The translations under genes were made by a program, and so were the position numbers. This document shows positions 2,489 through 61,169 of a DNA stretch of 61,762 bases, one piece after another. The stretch is taken from the IMG/VR virus record IMGVR_UViG_3300020182_000034, positions 1 through 61,762 of that record; one strand, given 5' to 3'. The notes beneath the pieces were generated by a model, which saw only the letters and a program-made list of their open reading frames with translations, had not been told where the DNA came from and did no database searches. Origin of the DNA: a virus. Each line of letters opens with the position of its first letter. Position 1 is the first letter of the stretch.

Positions 2489-2497
2489 GTATTACAC
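2489..2497 (-). promoter_or_regulatory. Candidate late promoter motif GTGTAATAC
   Basis: On the minus strand GTGTAATAC ends 6 nt before the ATG at 2482 and is preceded by an A-rich tract (CCAAAAACT). The same arrangement, with A-rich tract, GTGTAATC and ATG, precedes the gene at 6485. It is one of eight GTGTA motifs found ahead of structural transcription units. The promoter role is inferred from this recurrence only. Confidence 0.45.
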
Positions 2498-2507
2498 AGT
2501 TTTTGGT

Positions 2508-4733
2508 TTATCTGACCGCATGAGTGTGAATTTTGCAGGCAGATTTTAAGGTTGACCCGAACACTATATTGTAAGAGTTTTGAGATATACCTGAAACGAG
2601 ATGAGGTATCAGCGGCCCATTAACCTCAATTCCTGCAGAAACAACAGGCGTAGACGGAAAAGTGTTTGGAAAATTAACTTGATAGGAATCTTGTCCAGGA
2701 ATTAAATCTGTAATGAATGACTGGGTTGTTGTTTTATTAACTGACGATTGACCTGTCGCTCTTACTGATGTGTGGATTTTATAAGAATCATTTGGTAGGG
2801 ACATTCCAAAATTAACATAATACTCTGAATTATTAACACCTGATATAAAGTACGGCACTATAGCTCCACCTTCATTATTTTCTAAAGAAAGCGTTACTGC
2901 AGGTTTTTCTCCAAAAGTTTTTGGGAAATCAATTTTGTACGCGTCGCTACCCCCGACCAGATCGGTAACAAAAGATACCACCTCATCAGAACCCCCAAAA
3001 ACTCTCTCCCATTTTCCATCCTCCCCTGTAGTCAATAAGCATTCTAAATAAGCGTCTCCAGTAACAGATAATTCTCCAATAGGGGCGTCGGTATTAATTC
3101 CAAGAAAACCTTCTTTTGATAACCTTACCTGTTCAACCCCGCTTGTGTAAAAAATTATATTATCTCCGTTTCGCTCATCAAGAGATATGGAGGTTGAAGC
3201 TCCCGCAGTTAAGCTTATTTTGTTGTCAGTAAATTGAATAAAAGTGTCTGCATCTCCTAAGTGGTATAAATTCTCCCCAAGGTAAAGGTCTTCGGCAATT
3301 GTTTCGCTCCCTTCAATCAATGAATTGCCAGTCTGAGTTCTGTTTCCGCTTAAGAATGTATTTCCAACTCGATAGGAAGTTCCTACCAACGAATAATCTC
3401 CAGTCATAAAAGAATTTCCAATCAAATGAAAATCTCCAGTGTGCCAAAAATCACCCCTCATGTTTACGTTTCCTGTTTGGATTGTGTTTCCAATAATAAA
3501 CTCAGAACCCTCTCTGTAGGAATTTCCGGTTTGACTTAAATTTCCAAGCAGATTCAAGCTTCCAGTTTGATAAACATCTCCTGTGTAAAAAGAGTTTCCT
3601 GTGATGTGAATATCTCCCACAATAGAAGAATCTCCAACTCTCAAATAGTTCCCTTCGAGCCTTGAGTTTCCTGTCGCACTAACATCTCCGACAAAACAAG
3701 AATCTCCTGACACATGCAATGTACAATGAGGATCTATAGACTTAGTGAATTCATGAGTCTCCACTCCTGAAAAATTAAAGTGCGAGATTTTCCAAAAATT
3801 ACCTGTAATTATTTTTTCTGCAATTAATCTATACTTGGAATATTTTATGGGGTAATAGTTGTCTAAAGAAAATGATGTAGCTTCTCCTATGTTATTATAT
3901 TCGGTTGAGCTTAAATTCTGAACTTCGTGAATAGTCCTCCAGTCTTGCCCGTTATTCGAAGCGACAACCTTTAAGTTTTCTGCCGAATTTTCTATATCAG
4001 ATCTAAAGATTGAGAAACCTTTGTAATTGAAGGGTGTCGGAAAATCTATACCAACCCAGCAGCCGCCCATTTCTCTATGTATGTCATCTGGAGAAAAAGA
4101 ATGCCCATCCAAAGATAAATCGTTCTCAAGGTTCTGCTGCGAGCTTGGCATGTTTGAGTTATAGTATCCAGAAGGTTCATATATTGGGTAAGAAGATACA
4201 GAAGTGTTTAAGTTTGGCTGACCAATCCCGATAAAATCTAATCCGTCTGTATAAGTTGACTCGTCAATTCCTCCTCCGTAATTATATTGAGTGTATCCAT
4301 CTGAATAATTTGGGTAATCACTAAAAACATCCCTCACTACCCTTCTGTCTGTAAAATGTAAACCAACTCCCAGTCTTTCGAAAAGGCCGCTTTGACCAAC
4401 AAAAATGTTTCCACTTATATCTCCTGTTTCTGTTATATCAATAATTTCGTTCATGTATATATTATTCAAAAATGTACATGAATCTGCGAATGTTTTTTCT
4501 CCGCTAATTAATTGATTGCCTGTTAGGAATACTGAATTATCTAATATGGATTTTTTTAAATTTTTATATTGTATTTTTTCATTATATTCTCCAGAATTTG
4601 ATAGCAAGAATAGTACTTCATTGTCTTTATTGCCTTGCGTATTAATTGATGCGCTGTACGGAAAAGGTTCTAAGCCATCAGACACAAGTTTTTTTGTGTG
4701 AATTAAATTTGATATTCTGTTATCTTTATTCAT
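2508..4733 (-). CDS. Tail fibre protein with discoidin-like and duplicated C-terminal domains
   Basis: 741 aa, paralogous to the next gene upstream: both begin with (N)KRIS/DNRIS, LVSD, LEPFP and share the 'TGNQLISG' block near residue 75. Residues ~180-325 resemble an F5/8-type C (discoidin) carbohydrate-binding domain, with motifs such as 'NGQDWRTIHEV' and 'KYRLIAE'. Residues ~340-490 form a regular series of 7-9-residue turns of the xTGNxxxxGD type, expected to make a beta-solenoid or triple-helix shaft. A 'GINTDAPIGELSVTGDA' unit follows. The C-terminus has two copies of a ~70-residue domain with the pattern 'Y(K/Q)(I/V)(D/N)FP.TF...P.V', resembling H-type lectin folds. The ATG overlaps the TAA of the upstream gene by one base, suggesting coupled translation. 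Function is inferred as an alternative receptor-binding fibre. Confidence 0.75.
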   Translation of the reverse strand: MNKDNRISNLIHTKKLVSDGLEPFPYSASINTQGNKDNEVLFLLSNSGEYNEKIQYKNLKKSILDNSVFLTGNQLISGEKTFADSCTFLNNIYMNEIIDITETGDISGNIFVGQSGLFERLGVGLHFTDRRVVRDVFSDYPNYSDGYTQYNYGGGIDESTYTDGLDFIGIGQPNLNTSVSSYPIYEPSGYYNSNMPSSQQNLENDLSLDGHSFSPDDIHREMGGCWVGIDFPTPFNYKGFSIFRSDIENSAENLKVVASNNGQDWRTIHEVQNLSSTEYNNIGEATSFSLDNYYPIKYSKYRLIAEKIITGNFWKISHFNFSGVETHEFTKSIDPHCTLHVSGDSCFVGDVSATGNSRLEGNYLRVGDSSIVGDIHITGNSFYTGDVYQTGSLNLLGNLSQTGNSYREGSEFIIGNTIQTGNVNMRGDFWHTGDFHLIGNSFMTGDYSLVGTSYRVGNTFLSGNRTQTGNSLIEGSETIAEDLYLGENLYHLGDADTFIQFTDNKISLTAGASTSISLDERNGDNIIFYTSGVEQVRLSKEGFLGINTDAPIGELSVTGDAYLECLLTTGEDGKWERVFGGSDEVVSFVTDLVGGSDAYKIDFPKTFGEKPAVTLSLENNEGGAIVPYFISGVNNSEYYVNFGMSLPNDSYKIHTSVRATGQSSVNKTTTQSFITDLIPGQDSYQVNFPNTFPSTPVVSAGIEVNGPLIPHLVSGISQNSYNIVFGSTLKSACKIHTHAVR

Positions 4734-6433: not shown

Positions 6434-6444
6434 GGCAGGTCTTT

Positions 6445-6455
6445 TAATTATACAC
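6445..6455 (-). promoter_or_regulatory. Candidate late promoter motif GTGTATAATTA
   Basis: Minus-strand GTGTATAATTA lies 11 nt upstream of the ATG at 6433. It contains a perfect TATAAT, but the region ~17 bp upstream has no good TTGACA match. It may therefore be an extended -10-only promoter of the family seen elsewhere in the window. Its predicted start of transcription would leave a leader of only a few bases. Confidence 0.45.
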
Positions 6456-6470
6456 TTAATTGCCAAAAAG

Positions 6471-6479
6471 GTGTAATCA
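6471..6479 (+). promoter_or_regulatory. Candidate late promoter motif GTGTAATCA
   Basis: GTGTAATCA sits 5 nt before the ATG at 6485, after a CCAAAAAG tract. It is nearly the same string as the motif before the fibre gene starting at 2482 on the other strand. It shares a 50-bp divergent intergenic space with the leftward motif at 6445-6455. Confidence 0.45.
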
Positions 6480-6484
6480 GTTTA

Positions 6485-7640: not shown

Positions 7641-7662
7641 CGTGAGAGGTTTGGGTTAAATT

Positions 7663-11680: not shown

Positions 11681-11685
11681 GAACA

Positions 11686-11694
11686 CTTTTACAC
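11686..11694 (-). promoter_or_regulatory. Candidate late promoter motif GTGTAAAAG
   Basis: Minus-strand TTTAGTGTAAAAGTGTTC lies directly before the ATG at 11680, with the motif ending 5 nt from the start. An A-tract precedes it. It is one of a divergent pair in the 72-bp space between 11680 and 11753. Confidence 0.4.
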
Positions 11695-11709: not shown

Positions 11710-11718
11710 GTGTATATC
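11710..11718 (+). promoter_or_regulatory. Candidate late promoter motif GTGTATATC of the main tail operon
   Basis: A run of nine T residues is followed by GTGTATATC, 34 nt before the ATG at 11753. It would start the long rightward tail operon. The motif overlaps a perfect 12-bp palindrome (11713-11724). Confidence 0.45.
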
Positions 11719-13858: not shown

Positions 13859-13867
13859 GTGTATAAA
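13859..13867 (+). promoter_or_regulatory. Candidate late promoter motif GTGTATAAA before the tape measure
   Basis: GTGTATAAATAC lies 24 nt upstream of the tape-measure ATG, directly after the stop of the chaperone gene. It contains TATAAATA, the T4 late-promoter core, as well as the GTGTA signature of this phage. Confidence 0.4.
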
Positions 13868-13889
13868 TACCTTATAACGGAATAAGGTA
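13868..13889 (+). promoter_or_regulatory. Hairpin enclosing the ribosome-binding site of the tape measure gene
   Basis: TACCTTAT (13868-13875) and ATAAGGTA (13882-13889) are perfect 8-bp complements around a 6-nt loop (AACGGA). The 3' arm contains AAGG, the only Shine-Dalgarno-like sequence before the ATG at 13892. Folding would hide the ribosome-binding site and could lower tape-measure translation relative to the chaperones, which must be in excess. No U-run follows, so it is not an intrinsic terminator. Confidence 0.45.
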
Positions 13890-13891
13890 AT

Positions 13892-30119: not shown

Positions 30120-30441
30120 TCGACTCTCAAAAGAAATACTTGATGAGATAGCAGATTACGCTAAAAGGTTTAGGCTTGAGGAGTCTTGCGGTCTTGTGGT
30201 TGAAGAGGGAGATTGTTTAAGGTTTGTTGCATGTAAAAACCTCAGCAGGCGCAGGGATATGCATTTTTTAATCAATCCAGAGATTTTAATTGAAAACAAT
30301 GTTTTTTGTATTTATCATTCTCATGTGAACCATTCTCCTTCTCCTTCCAAACTTGATATTAAAAGCTCAAATGATTTATGTATTCCTTATTTGATATATA
30401 GTTTGAGAGATGATGACTTTTATTTTTATAATTGTGTATAA
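30112..30441 (+). CDS. gpK-like tail assembly protein, JAB/MPN (Mov34) peptidase domain only
   Basis: 109 aa from a TTG at 30112 whose codon overlaps the end of the L gene (TTGAATAG); GGAAGAG lies a few bases upstream. A longer TTG start at 30079 is possible but adds a basic, non-conserved stretch. The JAMM metal-site motif is complete: 'YHSHVNHSPSPSKLD' fits HxH-x7-S-x2-D, with the upstream Glu in 'LEESCGLVV'. Lambda gpK has this domain plus an NlpC/P60 peptidoglycan hydrolase domain; the second half is absent here. It probably processes or chaperones tail tip assembly. Confidence 0.8.
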   Translation: MNSRLSKEILDEIADYAKRFRLEESCGLVVEEGDCLRFVACKNLSRRRDMHFLINPEILIENNVFCIYHSHVNHSPSPSKLDIKSSNDLCIPYLIYSLRDDDFYFYNCV

Positions 30442-30442
30442 A
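30434..30442 (+). promoter_or_regulatory. Candidate late promoter motif GTGTATAAA before the gpI-J gene
   Basis: GTGTATAAA lies 15 nt before the GTG start of the gpJ-like gene, and AAGGA follows 6 nt before that start. The motif overlaps the last codons and stop of the gpK-like gene, so coding constraint could explain part of it. This is the weakest of the rightward matches. Confidence 0.3.
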
Positions 30443-46448: not shown

Positions 46449-47607
46449 GATTGTTTTCGTTGTAAATTCTTAATATGTTTAAGTCTTCCCAGAACTCCGG
46501 GCAGTCAATGATTTTATTGTGATTTCCTTGTTTGTCATATTTCCAGGCAGCTTTACTGTTGTAAATTTGACCTCCAGCTATTATCTTCATTGAGCATTTA
46601 TAACGAGAATTATCGCACACTTTGTTCGAGTTGTCAAGATCTTTTTTTGTTTTTGTTTTTATAAACATGATTGGCCAGTCAAAAAATTTAATTCTTAATT
46701 CATTTATGTTTTCTTCATTTTTGCACAAAAGATTTAATTTAATTCCTAATTTTTCTATTGCTGTAAAATATTTAGGATTGTCTTTTTCTGATACATAGTA
46801 GTTTATTAAATTGATATTATCTTTTATTACTCGCAAATACTTTAATTCCATAGGTTGATCTAGGAATATATTACATTTTCTATCGTACGCCCACTTTGCG
46901 ATATTGGGTTGATCGAAGCATTCGTGCCCCCAAATGTTAACAGGTTGCCCTTTGGCGAACGTCTTTGGCATGATATGGTTTGGTACAACTGATATGGATG
47001 GAGTTTTGTATTCAACCCCCATGTGAAGTGTTTCGACGCTATCTATGTTATGTTTGATATTTAACAAATTAAGTACCGACCTTGCAATAGTCTCAGGTTT
47101 AATAAAATTAATTGTCTTCGGGGACTCCTTGCTTGAAAATGAAGGCTTTAGCCCTCCCCTGTCCGACTCTATTAAAATTTGATTGTTTTTATCTCCCCAG
47201 TATGGACCACAACATTCTTTGTAGAGAACACTGTATAGGCAGACTAGTTTTTTGTTAAATCCTGATGCCACGTGCGTAGTGAATGAGTCGTTGCCAAAAT
47301 GAAGTAGTGATTTTTCAATGACGTAAGCAGTTTGCCTTATGGAGGTGTTGCCATTATAGTGATTACATTCTTTGACGGCTTTATCTTCTTTAGCTCCAAC
47401 CTGTACAACTTCTATCCCTTCCTCTTTTAAGTAGGGGCTAATCAACGTCATTACATCTGGAAAATAATCATAATTCTTTGCCTCCATTCCGCTGCTCGCA
47501 TGCAGGGTTATGTATTTTTTAAAAGGTATCGGAAAGAATGAAGTTTCTATATGGGGCTTGCCTATTTTAACCCCACAAGATAGCGCGTATTGTTCTATTA
47601 AGTGCAT
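46423..47607 (-). CDS. C-terminal half of a split GT9-type glycosyltransferase, plus an unknown domain
   Basis: 394 aa. Residues ~30-150 match the C-terminal Rossmann domain of heptosyltransferase-like GT9 enzymes: 'KYITLHASSGMEAKNYDYF', 'GIEVVQVGAKED' and 'LLHFGNDSFTTHVASGFNKK' (nucleotide-sugar binding end). The N-terminal acceptor half is at the end of the upstream 634-aa protein, and 'MHLIEQYALSCGVKIG' continues it directly. The ATG lies within the last codons of the upstream gene (10-bp overlap, -1 frame). Residues ~170-394 are not recognised; they contain Cys residues ('NKVCDNSRYKCSMKIIAGG'). The two products may assemble into one enzyme. Confidence 0.6.
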   Translation of the reverse strand: MHLIEQYALSCGVKIGKPHIETSFFPIPFKKYITLHASSGMEAKNYDYFPDVMTLISPYLKEEGIEVVQVGAKEDKAVKECNHYNGNTSIRQTAYVIEKSLLHFGNDSFTTHVASGFNKKLVCLYSVLYKECCGPYWGDKNNQILIESDRGGLKPSFSSKESPKTINFIKPETIARSVLNLLNIKHNIDSVETLHMGVEYKTPSISVVPNHIMPKTFAKGQPVNIWGHECFDQPNIAKWAYDRKCNIFLDQPMELKYLRVIKDNINLINYYVSEKDNPKYFTAIEKLGIKLNLLCKNEENINELRIKFFDWPIMFIKTKTKKDLDNSNKVCDNSRYKCSMKIIAGGQIYNSKAAWKYDKQGNHNKIIDCPEFWEDLNILRIYNENNHGNKDKTN

Positions 47608-49502: not shown

Positions 49503-50068
49503 TAAAATGGAGCGGAATCGCTGTCAGAGCTTTCGGGTCGAACCTCTTCTTTTTGCTCGTTTTTGTATTTTTGTATATTTTTAATCTCCTCTTTCCTTCT
49601 GTGCTCGTACAGTTTGGACAAGTAAAATCTAAAGAATTCATCAAGATTTTCAACCTCTCCGGGTTCAAGGGGCACTCTAAATGTTTGGCTACCATTCCTC
49701 GTAAATGTTATCCCGAAAGCTGGCAATATGGTACTTTCTCCCTTTTGGTTTTTTACAGATTTATCCCACGGTACGAATTTAATTGAAGTCTTGTTCTCTT
49801 CAAAACTGTGAAAGGCTGAGTACTCATACCTCTTTCGTAGGGCGCTTAATATCCCACCAATCTCAAATTCGTTGAATTTTAAATTTATATTTTTTTCGGG
49901 GTTTTCTTTATTGCCAGAGAAGCTTCCAGATCTTTTTTTATCATCCCAGTTGTATTGCTGGATTGCGCTTGCATAAACGACAGGCTCTTTGTTTCTGTTG
50001 ACACCTATCTTGAAATTAAATGCGCACCCTGCGTTTTTGCTGTTTGGTTTATATAATGTAATACTCAT
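49502..50068 (-). CDS. PC4/Whirly-like ssDNA-binding protein with SSB-type acidic tail
   Basis: 188 aa from the ATG at 50068 ('MSITLYKPNSKN'); a TTG at 50101 would add an 11-residue hydrophobic leader and is less likely. Residues ~10-115 have the strand pattern of PC4/p24-like ssDNA-binding proteins: 'CAFNFKIGVNRNKEPVVYAS', 'NINLKFNEFEIGGILSALRK' and 'NKTSIKFVPWDKSV'. A charged helix (~145-170) follows, then an acidic C-terminus 'ESSDSDSAPF' ending in Phe. This mimics the SSB C-terminal tip that binds replication proteins. It is therefore a candidate second ssDNA-binding protein, expressed in the opposite operon to the OB-fold SSB at 59362. Fold assignment is by eye and moderate. Confidence 0.45.
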   Translation of the reverse strand: MSITLYKPNSKNAGCAFNFKIGVNRNKEPVVYASAIQQYNWDDKKRSGSFSGNKENPEKNINLKFNEFEIGGILSALRKRYEYSAFHSFEENKTSIKFVPWDKSVKNQKGESTILPAFGITFTRNGSQTFRVPLEPGEVENLDEFFRFYLSKLYEHRRKEEIKNIQKYKNEQKEEVRPESSDSDSAPF

Positions 50069-50097
50069 AACAGATAATATGAGTAAAGATAAATTTA

Positions 50098-50949
50098 TCA
50101 ACTATTAATTAAGTCTATATGGTTGCACCAATCTTCTTCGTTGTACAGTGCGTCGTACCTCCTGTAGCTAGATGTCCATATATGCCTCGGCAGGTTGCGT
50201 ATTCTTATTATGTCAAAATGTTTTTTCATCAAGCTTGACGATGGCTCTTGGGATGAGCTGTCGAATTTTTTTCTTTGTTTATCAAAATAGGTTTCAATGA
50301 TGGCGTTACACAGCAGTTGCTCTGGAAAACCAAACTGGGTTTTTCCCTCGCATAATGAATAAGCTCTCTCAAAGGCGTCCTTCATTCTAATTCTTGATCC
50401 AGCAACAATGTGGTCAGACGGGTGGAATTTATGCTGCTTGTCGAATCTAAAATATATATTGGAGGTTATTATCTTGAACCAGTCTTTTTTTGAGTTTCTT
50501 ATTAGTAGGTTTACCAAAGGATCCAGCACTGGAAAGCTCTCATCGGATCTTAATTTAATGCAAAAACTCCCAGAAGCCTCATTGATTCCTGATAGAGTTG
50601 TGGCGTGTTGGTATATCCACGGAGCCTGCTTCCCAGACCTCTTTCTAAACTTTGGGAGGTCTGAATATTTATTTACCACCAACTTGATTTTGCCTTTGTA
50701 CAGATCAAGTTTGCCGGTGTCGTCGTCGTCCCAACAGCTCACTATAACCTCGCCGTACTTCAGATAATCTGGTATTGTCTTTATTGACCTTTCGTTTAGG
50801 GGGCCTTGTATTATTATAGACACGCTTTTTTCGTAGTCACCTATTGACCCTAATAGGTTGCTGTACAGATTGAACGCGAACCTGTCCCATGGGCTAACAT
50901 GGGATTCGTGATTTAAGTAATTGTTAAATAATTCTTTATCATTGTTCAT
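50098..50949 (-). CDS. WavE-family glycosyltransferase-like protein
   Basis: 283 aa. It shows the WavE/LPS-synthesis pattern: 'VSIIIQGPLNERSIKTIPDY' near residue 43, 'YGEVIVSCWDDDD', an Arg-rich 'RKRSGKQAPWIYQHATTLSG' segment, and 'SGSFCIKLRSDESF', which carries the expected acidic nucleotide-sugar/metal site. WavE proteins are linked to lipopolysaccharide core or O-chain synthesis in Vibrio and relatives. The ATG overlaps the GDPD-like gene by 4 nt. With its neighbours it suggests phage-directed remodelling of a surface glycan or glycosylation of virion proteins. Confidence 0.7.
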   Translation of the reverse strand: MNNDKELFNNYLNHESHVSPWDRFAFNLYSNLLGSIGDYEKSVSIIIQGPLNERSIKTIPDYLKYGEVIVSCWDDDDTGKLDLYKGKIKLVVNKYSDLPKFRKRSGKQAPWIYQHATTLSGINEASGSFCIKLRSDESFPVLDPLVNLLIRNSKKDWFKIITSNIYFRFDKQHKFHPSDHIVAGSRIRMKDAFERAYSLCEGKTQFGFPEQLLCNAIIETYFDKQRKKFDSSSQEPSSSLMKKHFDIIRIRNLPRHIWTSSYRRYDALYNEEDWCNHIDLINS

Positions 50950-51368
50950 TTTAAATAGTCAGAGCATAGGCCAAAGCATATAGGCCCCGAGTATTCCCTG
51001 GCGTCCTCTACCACTAATACGCTTTTGTTGCAAACCCTTTTTCCTGGATATGTCCATATGAAATTTTTAGAGGTTAACGTATAATCATCGTTTTCGTGCC
51101 AGAAATAATTTAAGACTTTAAACTCTGATAGCAAGTCGATCGCTTCAAGATTTTTGCAATGAATCCACAACTTTCTGAAATTATTAAGCAAAAAGCTTAG
51201 GTCTATTTTATATTGGGGCTCGTCGTGACCTAGCCATATCTTCTTGTCGGCCCAAATATCTATCTCAACGTCAAAGCCTAGGTTTAGAGCTTGAGCTATC
51301 TGGTCGGGACTATTTTCTCTATCTTTGTCTGGGCCAAATACATTACCCCTATGAGCTACAAATATCAT
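50946..51368 (-). CDS. Short glycerophosphodiester phosphodiesterase-like protein
   Basis: 140 aa. The N-terminal active-site signature of GDPD is intact: 'VAHRGN' (general acid/base His), 'RENSPDQI' (Glu), 'GFDVEIDIW' (Glu/Asp metal ligands) and 'WLGHDEPQYKI' (second His). Classical GDPDs are ~250 aa TIM barrels; this one is about half length, as are some enzymes found in capsule gene clusters. It could release a glycerol-phosphate or cut a phosphodiester in a surface polymer. It overlaps the HAD/nucleotidyltransferase gene upstream by 20 bp and the WavE-like gene downstream by 4 nt. Confidence 0.75.
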   Translation of the reverse strand: MIFVAHRGNVFGPDKDRENSPDQIAQALNLGFDVEIDIWADKKIWLGHDEPQYKIDLSFLLNNFRKLWIHCKNLEAIDLLSEFKVLNYFWHENDDYTLTSKNFIWTYPGKRVCNKSVLVVEDAREYSGPICFGLCSDYLK

Positions 51369-52725
51369 GTTTTAAAAAGGTGTCTAGGTCTTCCGGGGTT
51401 CCGATGCCCCACATTTTTTCTATATGAAAGGTCTTAACTCTCGCTCCGTCAAGAAGGGCTTCGTTGTATACCGGACAAACGTAAAATTCATTATTAACTC
51501 TTATGTTTTTGTTGATCATTCTTTCCGCATACCTAACATAATCTTCTCCCTTTTTCCAAAAATAAATTCCCACCGTAGCGTGGTTGCTAATAGGCTTCTT
51601 TTCTGCAACTTCCACAACAAAACCTTCTTCGTTTAGTTTTGCGTAACTCCACTTCGGATGAGTGGAATTGAAGGTTAAAATCGAGGCATCTATATCGTCC
51701 GCAGATGATGCATACATATATTGATTGCTGTCCCACTCTACATACTGATCTGAGTTTGCTAAAACAAGAGGTTCGTTATTGTTAATGAGCTCTTTGGCTA
51801 GTAGAGTTGTACATGCCGCCCCCTCAGTTATGCCTTCCACTTGCACTATTTTGCAGTTTGGAGCTATTAAATTCAGAGTGTGCTTTAGGGAGTATTTTTC
51901 GTAGTGTTCTTTTTGCACTATGAATATATGCTGAGCATCTATATTTAAATTCTCCACGACCCTCTGGATCATTGGTTTTCCATTAACATCTATCAAAGGT
52001 TTTGGGAAAGTGTAACCAGCTTGCTCGAATCTAGACCCAGCTCCAGCCATAGGTATTAATACGTTCATTTTGCCTCCTTGCCATTTTGGTGAAATTTCAG
52101 ACTCTTTCTCTGCATTTATTATAGTACTACAAATCTTATCATATGTCAAGTCAGCGCAATCTTTTATCGCACAAAGAAAGCCGCCACTCCTCAACGCGCC
52201 CTTTCTGCCTATGTGGGAGTCCTCGATAATAACCGTTTCGTCAGGATTGGCGCCAGCCTTTATCATGCACTTCATATACACCTCCGCGTTAGGCTTTGGT
52301 TTGCTAACGTCCTCATTGGAATACAAAAAGTCTATATACTCAAAGAAGCCTTTTCTTATTAGCATTAATTTCGACGTCTCTCTTATGGAGTTTGTTGCGC
52401 ATGCAATCTTGTAACCCTTGTTTCTTAACTTTATTAATATAGATTGTATTCTTTTATCTTTTTTATAGGCATTTATCTCTCCCAGTGTTTTCTCCTGCTT
52501 GAGTTGCCAAACTTGATTGTGGCAGTCTTGCGGCAAATTCTTTTCCTTGGTGAGTTTTTTTAGTTTTTGAGTTGTTGTTAATGCATCATATTTGCAAAGA
52601 TGTTCTTCTTTACTTATTGTATATTGATCTCCTATTTCAGAAAGAGCTTTATTGAGTGCAATATAATGTAATTCGCGCGACTCAACTAATACTCCATCTA
52701 AATCAAATATAATTAATTTAATCAT
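51349..52725 (-). CDS. HAD phosphatase / sugar nucleotidyltransferase fusion
   Basis: 458 aa from the ATG at 52725 ('MIKLIIFDLDGVLVES'); the TTG at 52743 adds residues before the first beta strand and is rejected. Residues 1-~205 are a HAD hydrolase of the beta-phosphoglucomutase group: motif I 'FDLDGVLVES', motif II 'ATNSIRETS', Lys in 'SKPKPNAEVYM', and 'VIIEDSHIGRKGALRSG'. Residues ~220-458 are an NTP_transferase: 'MNVLIPMAGAGSRFEQAG', 'FPKPLIDVNGKPM', 'VLANSDQYVEW' (metal-binding Asp) and 'WGIGTPEDLDTFLK'. Such fusions make activated sugars or polyols for capsule synthesis. The start overlaps the upstream stop (ATGA). Confidence 0.85.
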   Translation of the reverse strand: MIKLIIFDLDGVLVESRELHYIALNKALSEIGDQYTISKEEHLCKYDALTTTQKLKKLTKEKNLPQDCHNQVWQLKQEKTLGEINAYKKDKRIQSILIKLRNKGYKIACATNSIRETSKLMLIRKGFFEYIDFLYSNEDVSKPKPNAEVYMKCMIKAGANPDETVIIEDSHIGRKGALRSGGFLCAIKDCADLTYDKICSTIINAEKESEISPKWQGGKMNVLIPMAGAGSRFEQAGYTFPKPLIDVNGKPMIQRVVENLNIDAQHIFIVQKEHYEKYSLKHTLNLIAPNCKIVQVEGITEGAACTTLLAKELINNNEPLVLANSDQYVEWDSNQYMYASSADDIDASILTFNSTHPKWSYAKLNEEGFVVEVAEKKPISNHATVGIYFWKKGEDYVRYAERMINKNIRVNNEFYVCPVYNEALLDGARVKTFHIEKMWGIGTPEDLDTFLKHDICSS

Positions 52726-53414
52726 ATGTGATATTGCCTCCAATGTTTAATTCCATGAGTGTTGGATATGTTTAAATATTGTTCAGTTTTCTTTTTTAAA
52801 TTGTAACAGCTTAAATATTTAAATGACAGGGAATTTTTTGATTGATATATTTTATTGTCCGAAGGAAAGAGTCCGTCTGTAGCTGCAACGTTAAATTCTC
52901 TTGATATATAGTTTTGGAATGCGTGTGGGCCTACTATTTGTAATCCCGGGTATATGTTTTTTCCTTTGATTAAGCGAGATACAGAAAGTATTCTTTTTGA
53001 TATAAAATTAATAGCATTAAGGAAAAGTTTACTTTCTTTTTTGCCAGAAATAAGCATGTAGCTTATATTCTTATGTCCAAGGTCAAAGAAAATATTTTCA
53101 TTGCAATCTAATTCTTTTAAGTTTATTTTTTTTGATAAATTAAAAGGTTCCATGTCAAAATCAAACCATATTCCTCCGTTTTTATAAATGTATGAAATTC
53201 TAAAAAAATCAGCTATAGCTGTTCCATTGGTTAAGCAATCATAACTTACCTTTGCTGTGGGGAAGTTTTTGAAAAAGTTGTATACATCTTTATCTGAAAA
53301 GTATTTTACTTCAAAACCATTATTTAATCTTTTCCATTTATCGATAGTTTCTTCGCAGTTTTTGCAGGTTTTTATATCTGGCTTAAACGATGTAAATAAA
53401 ACTTTTGGTATCAT
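52722..53414 (-). CDS. GT32-type glycosyltransferase (DXD sugar-binding)
   Basis: 230 aa. It has the Gly_transf_sug (GT32/OCH1-like) layout: 'IPKVLFTSFKPDIKTC' at the N-terminus, 'ETIDKWKRLN', then 'TAIADFFRISYIYKNGGIWF' followed by the DFD metal-binding motif. A terminal His-rich 'THGIKHWRQYHI' is typical of this family's end. It transfers a sugar from a nucleotide donor. The gene sits in an AT-rich stretch (52740-53440) compared with the genes nearer the operon start, which suggests a separate origin. It overlaps both neighbours by 4 nt. Confidence 0.8.
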   Translation of the reverse strand: MIPKVLFTSFKPDIKTCKNCEETIDKWKRLNNGFEVKYFSDKDVYNFFKNFPTAKVSYDCLTNGTAIADFFRISYIYKNGGIWFDFDMEPFNLSKKINLKELDCNENIFFDLGHKNISYMLISGKKESKLFLNAINFISKRILSVSRLIKGKNIYPGLQIVGPHAFQNYISREFNVAATDGLFPSDNKIYQSKNSLSFKYLSCYNLKKKTEQYLNISNTHGIKHWRQYHI

Positions 53415-54226
53415 AAATTTTGTGGTTGAGATTGTATAAATTCGTTAAATTTTAAACTTTCACTACAAAATTTGTGGTCTTGTAAATATTTAGGGAGCTT
53501 ATTTTTTTCATGACGCTTAAGTGATTTTATCCACTTATTTAAGTTTTGGTTTCCTCTGATAATTAAATTATCTTTTATGTAGTGTGGGAATTTTTTTTTG
53601 TTGTCTATGGTTCTATGTTCTATTTTAAATTTTTGACGAGAAATATTTTTGCTGTAAGATGGGTGGTATATATAAATATCTTTTGGTGTTAGTGGGTTTC
53701 TGAAAATATTACCAGGGTAATCTATATGATTGCAGTGGATTCTAGATGTTTTTACTTTACTTAAATTGAGATTTGATAATTTAAAGAATCTGCCCATAGG
53801 CTTCCATTCTTCGTAAAATTCTAAACCGTTCCAAAATAATTTGTGGGTTGGGTTTACTGAGGTAACTCCTGATTTTAGGATATTAATTAAATCGTCTATT
53901 TCTTTTTCATGAAAAATTTCATCTCCATCTCCGTTGATGTACCAGTCTGGGTTGTATTGTTTTGCTTTTTCTAGGGTAAAATGCCTGTGGTCTACTTGCG
54001 CTTTTCCGTTAAAATGATAAAGTTTGATTTTATTAAGAGGATCTGGTATAGATTTTATATAATCGATGGTATTATCCGAGCTTCTTGCGCTTTTACCGGT
54101 CTTGATGCCGCTTTCCCAACAACCTTCTGTTATGATAATTTTTGAGCAAAAAGAATAAAGACTTAATACGGATTCTCTTATAAAGTCTTCTTCGTTATAG
54201 CATTGTATTCCAGCTACAATTTTCAT
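53411..54226 (-). CDS. GT2-like glycosyltransferase
   Basis: 271 aa. The GT-A start 'MKIVAGIQCYNEEDFIRESV' (N-E-E of the GT2 pattern), 'KIIITEGCWESG' and the metal-site 'DWYINGDGDEIF' (DGD) are visible within the first 130 residues. The C-terminal half is basic and aromatic, perhaps for acceptor binding. It overlaps the GT32 gene and the methyltransferase-like gene by 4 nt each. Its likely role is addition of one sugar in the glycan built by this operon. Confidence 0.75.
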   Translation of the reverse strand: MKIVAGIQCYNEEDFIRESVLSLYSFCSKIIITEGCWESGIKTGKSARSSDNTIDYIKSIPDPLNKIKLYHFNGKAQVDHRHFTLEKAKQYNPDWYINGDGDEIFHEKEIDDLINILKSGVTSVNPTHKLFWNGLEFYEEWKPMGRFFKLSNLNLSKVKTSRIHCNHIDYPGNIFRNPLTPKDIYIYHPSYSKNISRQKFKIEHRTIDNKKKFPHYIKDNLIIRGNQNLNKWIKSLKRHEKNKLPKYLQDHKFCSESLKFNEFIQSQPQNL

Positions 54227-54759
54227 TTTTTCACTAAAGCTGCGATCATTTGACCTCCTTGCGTTTCTTTAATGACTTTGTATTTCTCAAGAATGGATCT
54301 ATAATGTTTTCTGCCTGGGTGCCAGTCATGCATAAAGATAATGCAGTCATTATTTATAAAATCGTACATATATCTAGCGCACTGAGGCCTAGCTCTTCCG
54401 TCTATTAATATTTTTGTGAATTTTTTATTAATTTTCGAACCTGTTTCTATGTATTCTTTGTAGGCTTTGTATATTTTAGTTGTATAGAGTTGGTTCCATT
54501 TTGTTGCGTGTTTTTGATCTGGATCTTCTGGTCTTACGACTGGAACTGTATGCATTGTGACATTTTTTGGCGCAATTTCTTTAACTGAATTAGCCCACTT
54601 AAGGTCTGATTCGATACTATAGTATTCTTTTACATATTTAGGGAAAAACATAGTGCTACCTCCGCAGCCGTATTCCAGCATTACGTCATCTTTATTTAAA
54701 AAACTTAATAAAAGATTAATTTCCCCTCGAGACATCCATGGTTGATTTGGTACATTCAT
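54223..54759 (-). CDS. SAM-dependent methyltransferase-like protein
   Basis: 178 aa. 'DDVMLEYGCGGSTMFFPKYV' resembles the SAM-binding motif I (E-x-G-x-G), and 'YYSIESDLKWANSV' gives the acidic end of the second strand. 'FTKILIDGRARPQCARYMYD' and 'CIIFMHDWHPGRKHYRS' follow as the expected later strands. Such short proteins accompany glycosyltransferases in surface-glycan clusters, either methylating sugars or as inactive scaffold. It overlaps both neighbours by 4 nt. Confidence 0.7.
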   Translation of the reverse strand: MNVPNQPWMSRGEINLLLSFLNKDDVMLEYGCGGSTMFFPKYVKEYYSIESDLKWANSVKEIAPKNVTMHTVPVVRPEDPDQKHATKWNQLYTTKIYKAYKEYIETGSKINKKFTKILIDGRARPQCARYMYDFINNDCIIFMHDWHPGRKHYRSILEKYKVIKETQGGQMIAALVKK

Positions 54760-55658
54760 TTTAAGTATTTGTTTATTGCGTGGGTTCTGATTTCATTAAA
54801 GGTTTCATCGTTCCATATAAAGTCATCTTGATAAGAGGTGTATACATCTTGGTCGCACCAACCTGCTTCCCTGAAATTATTAGGTCTACTGTGTTCTCCA
54901 ACTTCCCCTATGTATTCAAAATTATTTGTGAATGTCGAAACTTTAATCATACCTCTTGAAATTAAAGCTGATGATGTACATGAATCTTGACTTGATACTA
55001 TTTTATTTGGATCAATGCCAAATTGTGACATATATTCAAGTATTTTTAAATGCGGTCGAGCTCTATATTCTTGAGGCAATAAAGCCCAAAAACCTTCCAT
55101 GATGTCTAGGATTTTTTGGTAGGAACTTCTTCTCATTGCATAAGCCCACATGTGATCCATTAAAATTAATTTATCTTTATTTTTTTTTTGGTCTTTTAAT
55201 GTAGTTTTTGAATCTAGGTTGTCTATGTAATTGATATATGAATATCTGTGGCTTTTTTTTGATCTATGGTGTTCGCCGAAACAATTGATCATTGCAACTC
55301 TTTCATCATCTTTAAATAATTCAATAAGTCTGTCTATTTGCTGTATGTAGTGAGGCTGTAATACGGAATCATCTTCAATTAATATCAAGAATTCATTCTT
55401 CTTGAAAACCATTTCCCTTGAGAGTTTCATGATTCCTGCTACCCCAAGATTCACTTTTGGTATAAAGTTTTTAGAATGAGGTATTATTTCCTTTGATAGA
55501 TTAATACATTTTTGCACGGCAGGAATTTCTTGTTGGAATCTTGGCGCATCAATAAAACAATAAACTTCCCTGTCCCAGCATTGTGGAGATAGAGACTCTA
55601 AAACTTTTTTGAAATAATCAGGTCTATTATAAGCCGTTAATACTATCGGGGTTTTCAT
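54756..55658 (-). CDS. GT-A glycosyltransferase (GT2/GNT-I-like)
   Basis: 300 aa. The N-terminus 'PIVLTAYNRPDYFKKVLESL' and 'NLGVAGIMKLSREMVF', followed by 'FLILIEDDSVLQPHYIQ' (EDD metal site), fit GT-A enzymes related to GNT-I and family 2. 'LMDHMWAYAMRRSSYQKILD' after residue 165 matches the acceptor-side region of that group. The start lies inside the upstream gene (32-bp overlap). The region 54200-55300 is AT-rich relative to 56400-57400. Confidence 0.75.
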   Translation of the reverse strand: MKTPIVLTAYNRPDYFKKVLESLSPQCWDREVYCFIDAPRFQQEIPAVQKCINLSKEIIPHSKNFIPKVNLGVAGIMKLSREMVFKKNEFLILIEDDSVLQPHYIQQIDRLIELFKDDERVAMINCFGEHHRSKKSHRYSYINYIDNLDSKTTLKDQKKNKDKLILMDHMWAYAMRRSSYQKILDIMEGFWALLPQEYRARPHLKILEYMSQFGIDPNKIVSSQDSCTSSALISRGMIKVSTFTNNFEYIGEVGEHSRPNNFREAGWCDQDVYTSYQDDFIWNDETFNEIRTHAINKYLK

Positions 55659-56442
55659 TGTAGATTGTAGAGTTGTGCCCTTGGTTTTTCCATTTTTTCC
55701 CGCCCTTGCATAATATGGTTTTTATATTTCCAAAAGAATTTGTTCCTGTCAATTGTTTGTACTTGCAGTTTTTTCTGTTCAAATGAACGGTGAGTACAGA
55801 TTCTGGTACTTGAGACATATACTCTGGATAACCTTCGTTTTGCATGAAAGTTAAAGCTTCGCTTACTCCGTTAATACTTAGCATATATTTCTCCATTTCT
55901 CTTGAGTGGCCGATTGCGAATTGGTCGTTTATTTGATTCGGTAGGGAAGCCTTGTCGTAAATAAAGCTGAACGAGAATATCTTTCGCATCTCTTGTTCGT
56001 GGTTGTATATATTTGAGCTCTCAAAAAAAGGCAGTCTAATACATCTTGATCGAATGCAATCTTGTATTTCGTGCTTCTTTATTCTTTCTAAAACTTGAAT
56101 GTCCGGTCTTAGCCTGATGATTATGTCGTACTTAAGTTTTTTTAGGGATTCGTACTGTGTCATTACCTGGTGAGCTGATCTCATGTTTGCTAACATAGGG
56201 ATTAGTCCAGGACTAGGTTTTACCTGAATAGATGGATCTATGTCCAGCAAACCTGGGGTACACGGATCTAGAGAAGTCCAAGATTTGGGTTTGTAATAGG
56301 AGTAGAAGGATTGATAATCCTCGTCGCTCCATGTTGAGAAAAATATATCTGGATTTAGGTCCCTAATTAAGTTGTTGACTATAGAATCCCTGGATGACTC
56401 CCAGTCTCCAAGTTTACCGCTAAAGCATAGTGCTACTTTCAT
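55627..56442 (-). CDS. Putative glycosyltransferase-like protein
   Basis: 271 aa. It opens with 'MKVALCFSGKLGDWESSRDS', continues with 'NPDIFFSTWSDEDY' and has 'LKKLKYDIIIRLRPDIQVLE' in the middle. This combination occurs in uncharacterised proteins from polysaccharide clusters that resemble GT-A transferases. Near residue 185, 'QINDQFAIGHSREMEKYM' is the expected second conserved block. No certain DXD motif is visible, so catalytic function is inferred from family and context. It overlaps neighbouring genes by 4 and 32 nt. Confidence 0.6.
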   Translation of the reverse strand: MKVALCFSGKLGDWESSRDSIVNNLIRDLNPDIFFSTWSDEDYQSFYSYYKPKSWTSLDPCTPGLLDIDPSIQVKPSPGLIPMLANMRSAHQVMTQYESLKKLKYDIIIRLRPDIQVLERIKKHEIQDCIRSRCIRLPFFESSNIYNHEQEMRKIFSFSFIYDKASLPNQINDQFAIGHSREMEKYMLSINGVSEALTFMQNEGYPEYMSQVPESVLTVHLNRKNCKYKQLTGTNSFGNIKTILCKGGKKWKNQGHNSTIYNENPDSINGL

Positions 56443-57389
56443 TCTTTTATATATTCCGTGATGTCCCTCTGTGCTACAAGTTTCTCTATATTGTCTAATA
56501 AGTGAGGGTATAATCTGTAGGCGGGGTTTTTTATGCAGTTCTTTAACATGGTCCCCGCCATACTCGCGTCGTAATGAAGTGGAAGCGTGAACCTATCATT
56601 GATCAACCACCTGGCTAGGTACGAGTATTGTACTACTCCGTACTGCGTGCAGTATTTAGAAAAAGTGAAAACCGGCTTTCCGTGGTGATAAGGTATATAC
56701 CTGATTCCGGAGTCTATAGCCAGCATAGCAGAGCATCTTGATGATATGTCAAATATGCCCTCAAGCGTGTCGCTGATAAAATGCAGTCTAGGGTTATCGC
56801 TAAGCATTAGAGATTCGTATTTACCTTTAGACTCTTCATTGTACAATACGACAACATCAAGTTCCTGCGTTATGTTCTCCAATAGTCGCGATATGTACCA
56901 ACCCTCCATATTGGAGTCCGCCCCTTCTCTCGCGTAAAGGTGAGCAAGTATGAACTTACTGGGTAATTCATGCTTTAGCGAGCCAACAATCTCTGGCTTG
57001 GGGAATACATTAAAATGCTTGAACCAGTCGTAGTCGTGATTCATCCATTCCAGGGAGTCAACATGTAGGTCATAAAATCTATCGTAAGAGTCTGTCATTC
57101 GCTCGCGGTCCACATTCGGAACGTTCTCAATGGACCCCCTGTAATCCTCCTCTGGAAAATTAGAGGATTTTATTCTCAAGCTTTTATACTTCTTGCTTTT
57201 TAGAACAAACACCTTGTTGAAGTGTGAGGGCCATACTTTCGAGAGTAGTCCTGATTGAGTTTCACTTCCCTCTGTGTCAGACCACAAGTCTATCTCGCAA
57301 TCTCCGTGAAGCTCTCTTATCGCAGGGATAAACCTGTTTGCCAACAAGTGGTCCCCTAACCCTCCCTCCATTCGCACGGAAATTCTCAC
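56439..57389 (-). CDS. GT9-like (heptosyltransferase-type) glycosyltransferase
   Basis: 316 aa, GTG start at 57389. The GTG is kept because the first strand and 'MEGGLGDHLLANRFIPAIRE', the GT9 acceptor-domain start, need these residues; it overlaps the regulator's stop as GTGA. The C-terminal donor domain is visible as 'KFILAHLYAREGADS', 'LDVVVLYNEES' and 'SSRCSAMLAIDSGIRYIPYH' with GKPVF, the usual 'D(S/T)G..H.A...GKP' region. Together with the split GT9 at 46423-49502 it gives two GT9-type enzymes in one operon. Confidence 0.75.
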   Translation of the reverse strand: MRISVRMEGGLGDHLLANRFIPAIRELHGDCEIDLWSDTEGSETQSGLLSKVWPSHFNKVFVLKSKKYKSLRIKSSNFPEEDYRGSIENVPNVDRERMTDSYDRFYDLHVDSLEWMNHDYDWFKHFNVFPKPEIVGSLKHELPSKFILAHLYAREGADSNMEGWYISRLLENITQELDVVVLYNEESKGKYESLMLSDNPRLHFISDTLEGIFDISSRCSAMLAIDSGIRYIPYHHGKPVFTFSKYCTQYGVVQYSYLARWLINDRFTLPLHYDASMAGTMLKNCIKNPAYRLYPHLLDNIEKLVAQRDITEYIKE

Positions 57390-57700
57390 TGGCGCTGCCC
57401 CCTTATTAAGCTATTCTTATCACCAAGGATAACGGTAGTTAGTTGGGTTAATGTTTTATTGCATGTCTTCTTTCTTCTTATGTGTTTGGCTCTAGACAGC
57501 CTACCCAGGCTTGCAGAGATCTTACCGTACGACATCCCTCCCAGGTCGCTACCTATTCTCTCGTTCGAAAAAAATATAGGTTTACCGTGGGAAGCCTTGC
57601 ATACGAGATAGTTATAAACAACTAGATCATTTCCGATCAATTTGCCAGACACAACATCTTCTTGTATTACTAATGGAATTTGCATAAATGTTTTCATCAT
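57386..57700 (-). CDS. Winged-helix DNA-binding protein, first gene of the leftward operon
   Basis: 104 aa, beginning with two consecutive ATG codons. Residues ~20-85 look like a winged helix of the replication-initiator/regulator type: 'LIGNDLVVYNYLVCKASHGK', then 'FFSNERIGSDLGGMSYGKIS' as helix-turn-helix, then 'LGRLSRAKHIRRKKT' leading to the wing. It is transcribed from a consensus promoter that starts at or beside the ATG. Two identical dyads lie just behind that promoter's -35 box, so autoregulation is likely. It is the best candidate ligand of those dyads, though this is not shown by sequence alone. Confidence 0.65.
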   Translation of the reverse strand: MMKTFMQIPLVIQEDVVSGKLIGNDLVVYNYLVCKASHGKPIFFSNERIGSDLGGMSYGKISASLGRLSRAKHIRRKKTCNKTLTQLTTVILGDKNSLIRGQRQ

Positions 57701-57705
57701 GTTCG

Positions 57706-57734
57706 ATAATACATTAAGATTGCTTTTTTGTCAA
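57706..57734 (-). promoter_or_regulatory. Leftward sigma-70 promoter, leaderless
   Basis: Minus strand: TTGACA (57734-57729), a 17-bp spacer, TATTAT (57711-57706). Five bases separate the -10 box from the first ATG (57700-57698). The expected transcription start therefore falls at or within a base or two of the start codon, leaving no room for a Shine-Dalgarno sequence. Confidence 0.85.
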
Positions 57735-57739
57735 GCTGA

Positions 57740-57780
57740 ATTCAAATAATTGAACAAGCCACATTCAAATAATTGAACAA
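57740..57780. promoter_or_regulatory. Tandem operator: two 18-bp repeats with TTCAA-N4-TTGAA dyads
   Basis: ATTCAAATAATTGAACAA occurs exactly at 57740-57757 and 57763-57780, centre spacing 23 bp, about two helical turns. Each contains the inverted repeat TTCAA-ATAA-TTGAA (57741-57754 and 57764-57777). The pair begins 6 bp behind the -35 box of the leftward promoter and ~60 bp before the rightward one. This is typical of cooperative dimer binding by a regulator. Confidence 0.75.
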
Positions 57781-57840
57781 CGTTAATAGTATAGATAAAC
57801 AATAATATAGATTTTATTTTATATATATAAATATAAGATA

Positions 57841-57869
57841 TTGACAACTGATGAAAAATATGTTATATT
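57841..57869 (+). promoter_or_regulatory. Rightward sigma-70 promoter, leaderless
   Basis: TTGACA (57841-57846), 17-bp spacer, TATATT (57864-57869). The ATG at 57876 is 7 bases past the -10 box, exactly where transcription should start. It drives the early operon (unknown gene, dNMP kinase, sigma factor, SSB). The 57781-57840 stretch between it and the dyads is extremely AT-rich and may act as an UP-like element. Confidence 0.85.
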
Positions 57870-57875
57870 GTGAGA

Positions 57876-58217
57876 ATGAAATTTTTAGATCTAAGTGATG
57901 GTAAGTATTTTTTAGTAAAATGCTCTGACTGGTCTGCTGTTATTCAGGCAGACAACGAAACAGATGCGTGCACTAATTCTTTAAGAAATATGATTGACAA
58001 ACACGGGGGAGAATTAAAACTATCTTCTGTAATAATTTCTCAAGAACTAAACCCCGACATCTTCGAGCAGCTTAATCGGGCAAGGGAGAATGAGGATTTA
58101 GATTACGACGAGGATCCGTATGATGAATATGTATCTTACCATTCGGTAGCTATGATGCTTGCAAACGCAGGAATGCACGACCTATCTTCCAACGTAAAGA
58201 CAATATTCGGAGCATAA
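57876..58217 (+). CDS. Early protein of unknown function
   Basis: 113 aa from the ATG at 57876. A GTG at 57870 is in frame but would lie upstream of the predicted transcription start. The protein is acidic, with a beta-rich N-terminal half ('GKYFLVKCSDWSAVIQADNE', 'HGGELKLSSVIISQ') and an Asp/Glu/Tyr-rich stretch 'NEDLDYDEDPYDEYV'. The C-terminus 'SVAMMLANAGMHDLSSNVKT' is helical. I do not recognise it. As the first gene behind a strong early promoter it may be a host-takeover factor or a DNA-mimic-like acidic protein. The next gene begins one base after its stop. Confidence 0.8.
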   Translation: MKFLDLSDGKYFLVKCSDWSAVIQADNETDACTNSLRNMIDKHGGELKLSSVIISQELNPDIFEQLNRARENEDLDYDEDPYDEYVSYHSVAMMLANAGMHDLSSNVKTIFGA

Positions 58218-58218
58218 T

Positions 58219-58767
58219 ATGAGTCTCATAGGTATTTCAGGATTAGCGAGGTCAGGGAAGGATTCTTTTTACGAAAGAAGCGTTCCTTTCTTGAAGGAGA
58301 AAAACTTAAAGTGCAAGAGGTTAGCTTTTGCGGACGAACTCAAGAGAGAGTGCAATTTATTACTAAGGAGGTACACAAACGTGTCTGCATTCACGACAGA
58401 CAACGAAGAAAAGAAGATGGTTAGGCCCCTACTAATATCTTACGGAACCCATATTCGAAGGAGAATAAACCCCAACTGCTGGATAGAGTCCATAGAGCCG
58501 GAAGTTATAAATAAACTTGAGCAAGGTTACGCAGTATTCATAACTGATGTTAGGTATCAAAACGAAATAGAGTGGCTGCATAAACTAAAAGGAAAAACAG
58601 TGCACATCGAGAGGGTCGGAGTGAAACCCCCAAACAGGGAGGAAGAACTTAACGACCCAATCTTAAAGAAGAAATCCACAGTAAGATTACAGTGGGACGA
58701 CTTCCTGGAAAATGAAGATGAAGAAATATCGAAAAAAGTAAAAGAAACCTTAGAATCTATTTTATGA
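58219..58767 (+). CDS. Deoxynucleoside monophosphate kinase-like protein
   Basis: 182 aa. The P-loop 'GISGLARSGKDSF' is at residues 4-16. 'CKRLAFADELKREC', 'RPLLISYGTHIRRRINPNCW' and 'AVFITDVRYQNEIEWLHKL' match phage dNMP kinases of the T4 gp1/AAA dNMP kinase group (substrate-binding DEL/K and the DVR-x2-NE block). It phosphorylates dNMPs to dNDPs for phage DNA synthesis and can accept modified bases. The overlap with the sigma gene is 4 nt (ATGA). Confidence 0.85.
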   Translation: MSLIGISGLARSGKDSFYERSVPFLKEKNLKCKRLAFADELKRECNLLLRRYTNVSAFTTDNEEKKMVRPLLISYGTHIRRRINPNCWIESIEPEVINKLEQGYAVFITDVRYQNEIEWLHKLKGKTVHIERVGVKPPNREEELNDPILKKKSTVRLQWDDFLENEDEEISKKVKETLESIL

Positions 58768-59369
58768 ACGAAGAAAAAACCGACCAGCAAATAATCCAAG
58801 AACTACAAGAAGATATTAACGTAGAGGAAAACTTAAACCATTTAGTAGACAGGCACAGTGGGATATATTTAGACATGGTAAACGCTTTTGCTAGCCCCAA
58901 CAATCAATTCATTGACCACAAGGAACTGGTTAACGACAAGTACTACAAGATATACAATACGGCCATAAAGTTTGATGAAACCAAAGGAGCCAAGTTCAGC
59001 ACTTACCTCGGAAACGAAACAAAATGGATGTGCTTAAACATATACAACAAAAACAAAAGAAAACCTTTATTTTCTAGCGAATTTATAGAAAATATGGCAG
59101 GAGAGGAAGATACTTCGTGCGACACCATATCGGAGAGCATAAAAGAGGATATGTTTAATAAAGTTTTATCAATAATAAAAAAGCACCCAGACAAGAGGGT
59201 CGAAAAGATATTCACAATGAGATACATAACAGGAAACAAAAACAAAGTAATGCCATGGAGGAGTATAGGAAGCAAGGTAAACTTGAGTATTCAAGGTTGC
59301 ATAAACGTCCACAACTCGGCAGTAAAACACATACAGGAGAAATTGGTGGGAGAATTAAATTTTGAATAA
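58764..59369 (+). CDS. Small sigma-70-family factor
   Basis: 201 aa. Residues ~55-95 match sigma region 2: 'KYYKIYNTAIKFDETKGAKF' followed by STYLG and 'TKWMCLNIYNKNKRKP', which covers the core-binding and -10-recognition helices. Residues ~145-195 form a region-4-like helix-turn-helix ('MPWRSIGSKVNLSIQGCINV'). The length is close to small phage late sigma factors such as T4 gp55. It sits in the early operon, so it could redirect host RNA polymerase to late promoters; the GTGTA motifs before structural genes are the likely targets. It overlaps the kinase gene by 4 nt and SSB by 8 nt. Confidence 0.8.
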   Translation: MNEEKTDQQIIQELQEDINVEENLNHLVDRHSGIYLDMVNAFASPNNQFIDHKELVNDKYYKIYNTAIKFDETKGAKFSTYLGNETKWMCLNIYNKNKRKPLFSSEFIENMAGEEDTSCDTISESIKEDMFNKVLSIIKKHPDKRVEKIFTMRYITGNKNKVMPWRSIGSKVNLSIQGCINVHNSAVKHIQEKLVGELNFE

Positions 59370-59748: not shown

Positions 59749-59753
59749 TAATT

Positions 59754-60809: not shown

Positions 60810-61153
60810 TGCCACTATATACATACGAGCATCCCGAAACAGAAGAGACTGTAGATATTATACAGTCAATGAAAGAGGATCATATATATATTGACGACAA
60901 AGGGTTGCAGTGGAGAAGGGTGTTTTATGCCCCGAGAGCTTCAATAGACTCAAGCATAGACCCTTTTGACAAAGAAGCTTTTAAGTCTAAAACTTTTAAC
61001 AAAAAAGGTTCGTACAACGACGTTCTTGAAAAAAGCAAGGAACTAGGCCAAATGAGGAAGGATAAGCTAGGTTACGATCCAGTTCAAAAAAAATACTTCG
61101 AGGATTATAGCAGCAAGAGAAGGGGTATCAAACACCCACAGGATAATAGTTAA
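60809..61153 (+). CDS. FmdB-like protein that has lost its zinc ribbon cysteines
   Basis: 114 aa. The N-terminus 'MPLYTYEHPETEETVDIIQS' copies the start of FmdB-family putative regulators (usually 'MPIYEY.C..CG..FE'), but contains no cysteine, so it cannot bind zinc the usual way. The remainder is charged and helical, ending 'SKRRGIKHPQDNS'. FmdB-like proteins are common in phage genomes near replication genes; function is unknown. It overlaps the upstream stop by one base (TAATG) and is the last gene before the fibre transcription unit. Confidence 0.65.
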   Translation: MPLYTYEHPETEETVDIIQSMKEDHIYIDDKGLQWRRVFYAPRASIDSSIDPFDKEAFKSKTFNKKGSYNDVLEKSKELGQMRKDKLGYDPVQKKYFEDYSSKRRGIKHPQDNS

Positions 61154-61160
61154 GAAATAA

Positions 61161-61169
61161 GTGTAATAA
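61161..61169 (+). promoter_or_regulatory. Candidate late promoter motif GTGTAATAA
   Basis: AAGTGTAATAACTCCCGATATG: the motif ends 8 nt before the fibre ATG at 61178 and lies just after the last early-operon stop. It allows a structural gene directly downstream of the early operon to be controlled separately. Confidence 0.45.

Follow-up and report, generated by a model that had tools for sequence, protein, structure and literature searches.

Which promoters direct expression of the tail and fibre genes in an uncultivated phage, and which sigma factor reads them? The question is raised by a 61.8 kb phage record from IMG/VR (61,762 nt), analyzed over its full length and referred to here as the window, where a first-pass annotation had noted a recurring GTGTA(A/T)A motif ahead of structural transcription units and proposed it as a phage-specific late promoter. 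The window carries a lambda-like tail module with a tape-measure gene (13892-20536, plus strand), a gpL-like gene (28950-30119), a gpK-like gene with a JAB domain (30079-30441) and a gpJ-like gene (30458-35854, plus strand). Further along are a minus-strand block of roughly twelve closely packed genes (45666-57700, i.e. 45.7-57.7 kb) and a plus-strand operon (57.9-61.2 kb) that encodes a dNMP kinase, a sigma factor, SSB, a glycosyltransferase-like protein and a small regulator. No named phage relative of the window was found in INPHARED at either the DNA or the protein level, and dozens of IMG/VR contigs match it. Eleven related contigs of 71-200 kb were fetched and their genes were called with a dicodon model; the start codons used throughout are those of our own gene caller.

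All eight proposed motif copies are present in the window. With distances given for the first G of GTGTA relative to the start codon, the minus-strand sites at 2489..2497, 6447..6455 and 11686..11694 lie at -15 from start 2482 of a fibre-like gene, at -22 from start 6433 and at -14 from start 11680, respectively; the latter two starts replace the longest-ORF starts at 6466 and 11788. The second and third of these sites have divergent plus-strand partners at 6471..6479 (-14 from start 6485) and 11710..11718 (-43 from start 11753, with a leader). The remaining plus-strand sites precede the tape-measure gene (13859..13867, -33 from start 13892, with an AAGG SD in the leader), the gpJ-like gene (30434..30442, -24 from start 30458) and a fibre-like gene directly 3' of the early operon (61161..61169, -17 from start 61178). 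The sites at 6471 and 11686 are predicted to give leaderless transcripts. The A/T tract reported upstream of the motif exists but is modest, with A+T at ~82-91% in positions -6 to -2 relative to the motif. The reported lack of a -35 box was borne out, as a TTGACA box with one mismatch or none at -40 to -31 accompanies 6 of 106 genes with a near GTGTA site, compared to 242 of 1471 other genes.

The whole-window count is not significant, which makes frequency alone a poor test of the motif. GTGTAWWA occurs 14 times against 9.2 ± 3.1 in shuffled sequences (a count of 14 is reached in 8 of 100 shuffles), and GTGTAW occurs 40 times against 43; a genome-wide excess, suggested earlier as a check, was thus not obtained. 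These raw counts would suit a reading of GTGTA as a chance A/T-rich short word, which is contradicted by its position. In the 50 bp 5' of window starts, GTGTAW is found eight times in the sense orientation where 0.63 are expected (12-fold, Poisson P 3.6e-7), and four times in the antisense orientation.

Conservation was assessed by collecting orthologues for each window gene using tblastn with its N-terminus and reading the upstream DNA. GTGTAW is kept in 4 of 4 orthologues of the gene starting at 2482, 19 of 22 for 6485 (mostly at -14), 29 of 31 for 11680 (25 of them at -14), 24 of 25 for the tape-measure gene and 7 of 8 for the gpJ-like gene. The fibre gene at 61178, singled out earlier as carrying the motif despite its place behind the early operon, retains it in 21 of 21 orthologues. 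Retention is partial before 6433 (9 of 17, absent in the other 8) and before 11753, where 19 of 34 relatives keep the plus-strand site and several others read GTGTAC. All remaining window genes have GTGTAW in 0 to 3 orthologues, mostly 0, so that the flagged heads alone keep the motif. Occurrence before early genes had been named as evidence against a late promoter; the genes of the early operon and their orthologues carry the motif in 0 cases.

Within aligned tape-measure upstream regions from relatives of the same orientation, GTGTA is invariant and the following bases vary. The leader of this gene (window 13868-13891) and of its orthologues also holds a short conserved stem, CCTTAT/ATAAGG; the SD is part of its 3' arm, and the stem would sit at the extreme 5' end of the predicted mRNA. 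Since the stem is conserved without compensatory changes, we do not claim an SD-pairing stem-loop.

Unbiased motif discovery extended these observations to the clade. A 6-mer ranking upstream of starts in 12 contigs recovered both GTGTA and TTGACA: GTGTAA, GTGTAT or AGTGTA stood near the top in nearly all contigs, together with TTGACA or CTTGAC and A/T-rich words. In the position-specific ranking, first place among 5-mers at -14/-15 goes to GTGTA (75 occurrences, 5.7 expected) and among 6-mers at -35 to TTGACA (65 occurrences, 2.4 expected). Of the one-base variants of GTGTA, GTATA is clearly enriched (24 vs 8.4), GAGTA slightly (9 vs 4.4) and the others are not. The proposed consensus is therefore best shortened: the GTGTA pentamer is essentially invariant, and the WWA tail is merely an A/T preference. 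Among operon heads with neither motif, a search for a third promoter class showed only GTGTAC as conspicuous besides A/T-rich words. No earlier report of a GTGTA late promoter was found in the open-access literature.

The positional signal was reproduced in five held-out contigs, which are relatives of the first set and hence not statistically independent of it. They contain 30 GTGTA sites at -14 to -17, one at -13 to -6 and none in antisense; their TTGACW peak is smaller, with 11 sites at -37 to -34 and none in antisense. Neither a GTGTA nor a TTGACA peak was found near the starts of E. coli or of a Halobacteriovorax MAG. The GTGTA edge is missing from T4 as well. Given the positional P of 4e-7 for the window by itself, the conservation among orthologues, replication in the 12 contigs and the held-out set and the negative controls, we regard chance occurrence as practically negligible; footprinting and the held-out test rule it out.

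The early genes at 57700 and 57876 were confirmed to have promoters of the TTGACA/TATAAT type. The minus-strand element (57697..57732, TTGACA/TATTAT) abuts the start codon that opens the minus-strand block and is predicted to be leaderless. The plus-strand element (57841..57876) heads the sigma operon; its TTGACA lies at -35 and its -10 hexamer at -12 relative to start 57876. TTGAC is kept in 21 of 23 and 20 of 20 orthologues at 57700 and 57876, respectively. The block at 45666-57700 has no internal GTGTA or conserved TTGACA, and its only conserved early promoter is the one at its head. Across the contigs, TTGACW lies at exactly -35 in 87 genes, mostly with a -10 hexamer at -12/-13.

The two promoter classes avoid each other in the best-sampled contigs. 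Co-occurrence of GTGTA and TTGACA/TATAAT was 0 against 7.3 expected in the 184 kb relative G001, 0 against 3.7 in G002, 0 against 2.7 in G003 and 2 against 6.9 in G012. This exclusion is absent in more distant or shorter contigs, for example G017 (5 against 5.0). With respect to function, GTGTA sites precede genes for the tape measure, gpJ, fibres, a protease, a tail-sheath-like protein and a Clp-like ATP-dependent protease, while the TTGACA class includes rIIA, rIIB, NrdA, NrdB and many small ORFs. In G001, GTGTA also heads operons with UvsX, a DnaB-like helicase, primase and an exonuclease, and some replication genes carry a TTGACA match too (e.g. the helicase gene at 162252-163766). The earlier view that the motif marks structural units is too narrow, and because replication operons are headed as well, we describe GTGTA as a middle/late rather than a structural-only signal.

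The distance between GTGTA and the start codon is strikingly constrained. The first G lies at -14 in 44 cases, -15 in 25, -16 in 13 and -17 in 12, with a hard edge: 94 sites occupy -14 to -17 and 3 occupy -13 to -7. These near sites, 14-17 nt 5' of the start codon, make up half of all GTGTA cases, and an SD stands between motif and start in 1 of 96 of them, compared to 30 of 84 far sites (18-45 nt away, about one third with a separate SD). If the mRNA begins ~13-15 nt after the first G, as we infer by analogy with known -10 elements, the motif could not move closer without the start point entering the reading frame; the edge at -14 fits leaderless transcription. Similar geometry holds for the early class, with TTGACA at -35 and TATAAT at -12/-13, so that both classes have elements at fixed distances from the start codon (edges at -14 and -35); together with the near-absence of SD at near GTGTA sites, this is the sequence signature of leaderless mRNA. 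On these grounds both GTGTA and early promoters probably give leaderless transcripts. SD use is low, 14-28% of genes in G000-G019 against 69% in T4 with the identical caller. The fixed -14 spacing, the leaderless prediction and the shared geometry of the early promoters had been overlooked by the first-pass annotation.

The same fixed distance and missing SD, in half of the cases, could be taken to mean that GTGTA is a translation-initiation element replacing the SD and not a promoter. Tightly packed operon-internal genes equally need translation signals, but GTGTA is rare before packed same-strand genes (9 of 781) relative to those with a gap of at least 20 (73 of 691). Furthermore, the other half of the sites stand 18-45 nt off, and one in three of these has its own SD; facing site pairs are conserved in divergent intergenic regions, and the motif excludes TTGACA/TATAAT in the best-sampled contigs. 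A purely translational role is accordingly very improbable in our estimation, and we retain the promoter reading.

The candidate reader is the sigma factor at 58764..59369 on the plus strand (sigA). Its family has 29 members, of which 19 match Sigma70_r2, and sigA itself matches the RpoD profile (E 2e-4). The predicted model (pLDDT 82.6) consists of two domains joined via a low-confidence linker, and its fold matches in the PDB are mostly sigma factors of the cellular two-domain kind; judged by these matches and the model, sigA is a genuine two-domain sigma factor with region 2 and region 4 folds. In the window and in G001, G002, G013 and G014 its operon is headed by a TTGACA/TATAAT promoter at -35/-12, and in G012 the two elements lie at -47/-23; the operons of G003, G015, G017 and G018 showed no recognisable early promoter.

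Relatives of the window encode a second sigma-like protein (sigB; G001 130215-130958) of ~230-247 aa with a Cys cluster and a Sigma70_r2 match (E 5e-7), which is present in G001, G012 and G015-G019 and absent from the window fragment. GTGTA sites occur within -45 of sigB operons in 5 of these 7 contigs. The earlier proposal that sigA reads the motif is upheld insofar as sigA is a true sigma factor in an early-type operon, but the second sigma-like gene inside GTGTA-headed operons of the relatives leaves it a plausible assignment, with the window sigA as the best candidate. Further small Sigma70_r2-matching proteins, distinct from both, were seen in two distant relatives at G018 146961-147539 and G012 19499-19996.

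Three other readers were weighed. First, sigB, alone or with sigA, could read the same promoter while sigA does something else. Its Sigma70_r2 match, its occurrence in seven relatives and the combination of GTGTA sites and sigB without sigA in the covered sequence of G016 and G019 speak for this; on the other hand, both contigs represent fragments, a single phage-specific motif class was detected, and sigB would have to activate its own GTGTA-headed operon, while sigA sits behind early promoters. We consider it unlikely, though the strongest of the alternatives. Second, a polymerase of the phage itself might use GTGTA, as some large phages carry their own polymerases. The beta' domain of multisubunit RNA polymerase (PF04997) was absent from five large, possibly incomplete contigs in which positive controls were detected; the single-subunit profile (PF00940) gave no match, and its positive control likewise went undetected. 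This reading seems to us still less probable than a translational role. Third, a host alternative sigma factor, or a phage activator acting on the host holoenzyme, might read GTGTA with no phage sigma involved, since in some bacteria the host polymerase commonly uses leaderless promoters of the -10 type (PMC12340547). A phage sigma family conserved across the clade behind an early promoter, and the missing GTGTA peak in the single candidate host-like MAG, render a host reader improbable, more so than sigB. As a host, that Halobacteriovorax MAG is a weak candidate: it holds a sigA relative but has neither promoter peak, and 57% of its genes use SD.

Given the conserved, position-bound motif without a -35 box, the sigma fold of sigA and the early promoter of its operon, we consider it likely that these uncultivated tailed phages use GTGTA(A/T) as the -10-type core of a middle/late promoter of their own, most likely read by sigA and leaderless in about half of cases; its promoter role, timing, exact start point and reading sigma are predicted. 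The early set, comprising small takeover-type genes, rIIA/rIIB, NrdAB and the sigma operon, would be read from TTGACA/TATAAT promoters by the host polymerase carrying its housekeeping sigma. The early product sigA would then most likely redirect the host polymerase to GTGTA promoters, which would need no -35 box and would express replication and virion operons, sigB included. The simplest cascade would thus run from host sigma to sigA to the GTGTA genes with sigB. In about half of GTGTA cases the predicted start falls at the start codon or up to ~3 nt before it; the rest would have a short leader, about one third with an SD. The core of the original proposal, a phage-specific -10-only class separate from the early TTGACA/TATAAT promoters, is hence retained, and its claims on scope and reader are amended.

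The system resembles the known scheme of a phage sigma with a -10-only late promoter, and what is new is the leaderless format. The T4 late promoters (TATAAATA) have gp55 as their reader, together with gp33 and the gp45 clamp. Shared with them are a -10-only element without a -35 box, control of virion genes and a small phage sigma of ~200 aa, and the window site at 13859 contains TATAAATA. In contrast, the core here is GTGTA followed only by A/T-rich sequence, TATAAATA has no positional peak in these phages, and the GTGTA class includes replication operons. With the same caller, TATAAATA in T4 lies at -36 to -21 with SD leaders and never at -18 to -12, and sigA has no significant BLASTP similarity to gp55 (E 0.08). 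No beta-type clamp was found in five contigs with PF00712, a search that does not cover the T4 gp45 family. Because core, spacing and sigma differ, we do not class the GTGTA system as T4 late type.

Leaderless phage mRNA is shared with Thermus phage phiYS40, whose middle and late transcripts are mostly leaderless (PMC3594737). No relation is implied, and nothing points to a Thermus-like host; unlike in phiYS40, the present early class is apparently leaderless too and the motif is GTGTA. In Deinococcus-Thermus, -10 elements abutting ORFs commonly give leaderless mRNA (PMC12340547), but there the motif is that of the host housekeeping system, whereas here a phage-type GTGTA core and a TTGACA/TATAAT class occur in phages. 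The large phages phiKZ and AR9 also have distinct late promoter motifs (TATG; AACA-N6-TA/G); these are read by a phage multisubunit RNA polymerase, none of which was found here, and AR9 leaders measure 26-491 nt (PMC5312081).

With somewhat less confidence than in the promoter itself, we favour the view that this clade runs most promoters of both classes leaderless, outside Deinococcus-Thermus, the promoter position doubling as the translation start signal. Within such a format only operon-internal genes would need another mode of initiation. Such widespread leaderless use, spanning both classes, would be rare for phages, and one may ask by what means the host ribosome or the phage favours these mRNAs. 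The sequence alone would predict the timing of expression in this uncultivated group, with early and middle/late operons told apart and the first base of each mRNA specified. GTGTA at -14 is also useful in practice as a marker, both to correct start codons and to recognise members of the clade in metagenomes.

Two observations concern the structural genes. In G001, a gene for a tail-sheath-like protein (179973-182588, phrog_15433) coexists with gpJ and tape-measure genes of the lambda kind, an unusual combination of contractile and lambda-type tail components. In the window, the fibre-like gene contains in-frame repeats at 61400-61762, with units such as CATCGCTTACTCTCTGGCATATCTGGAGAACT.
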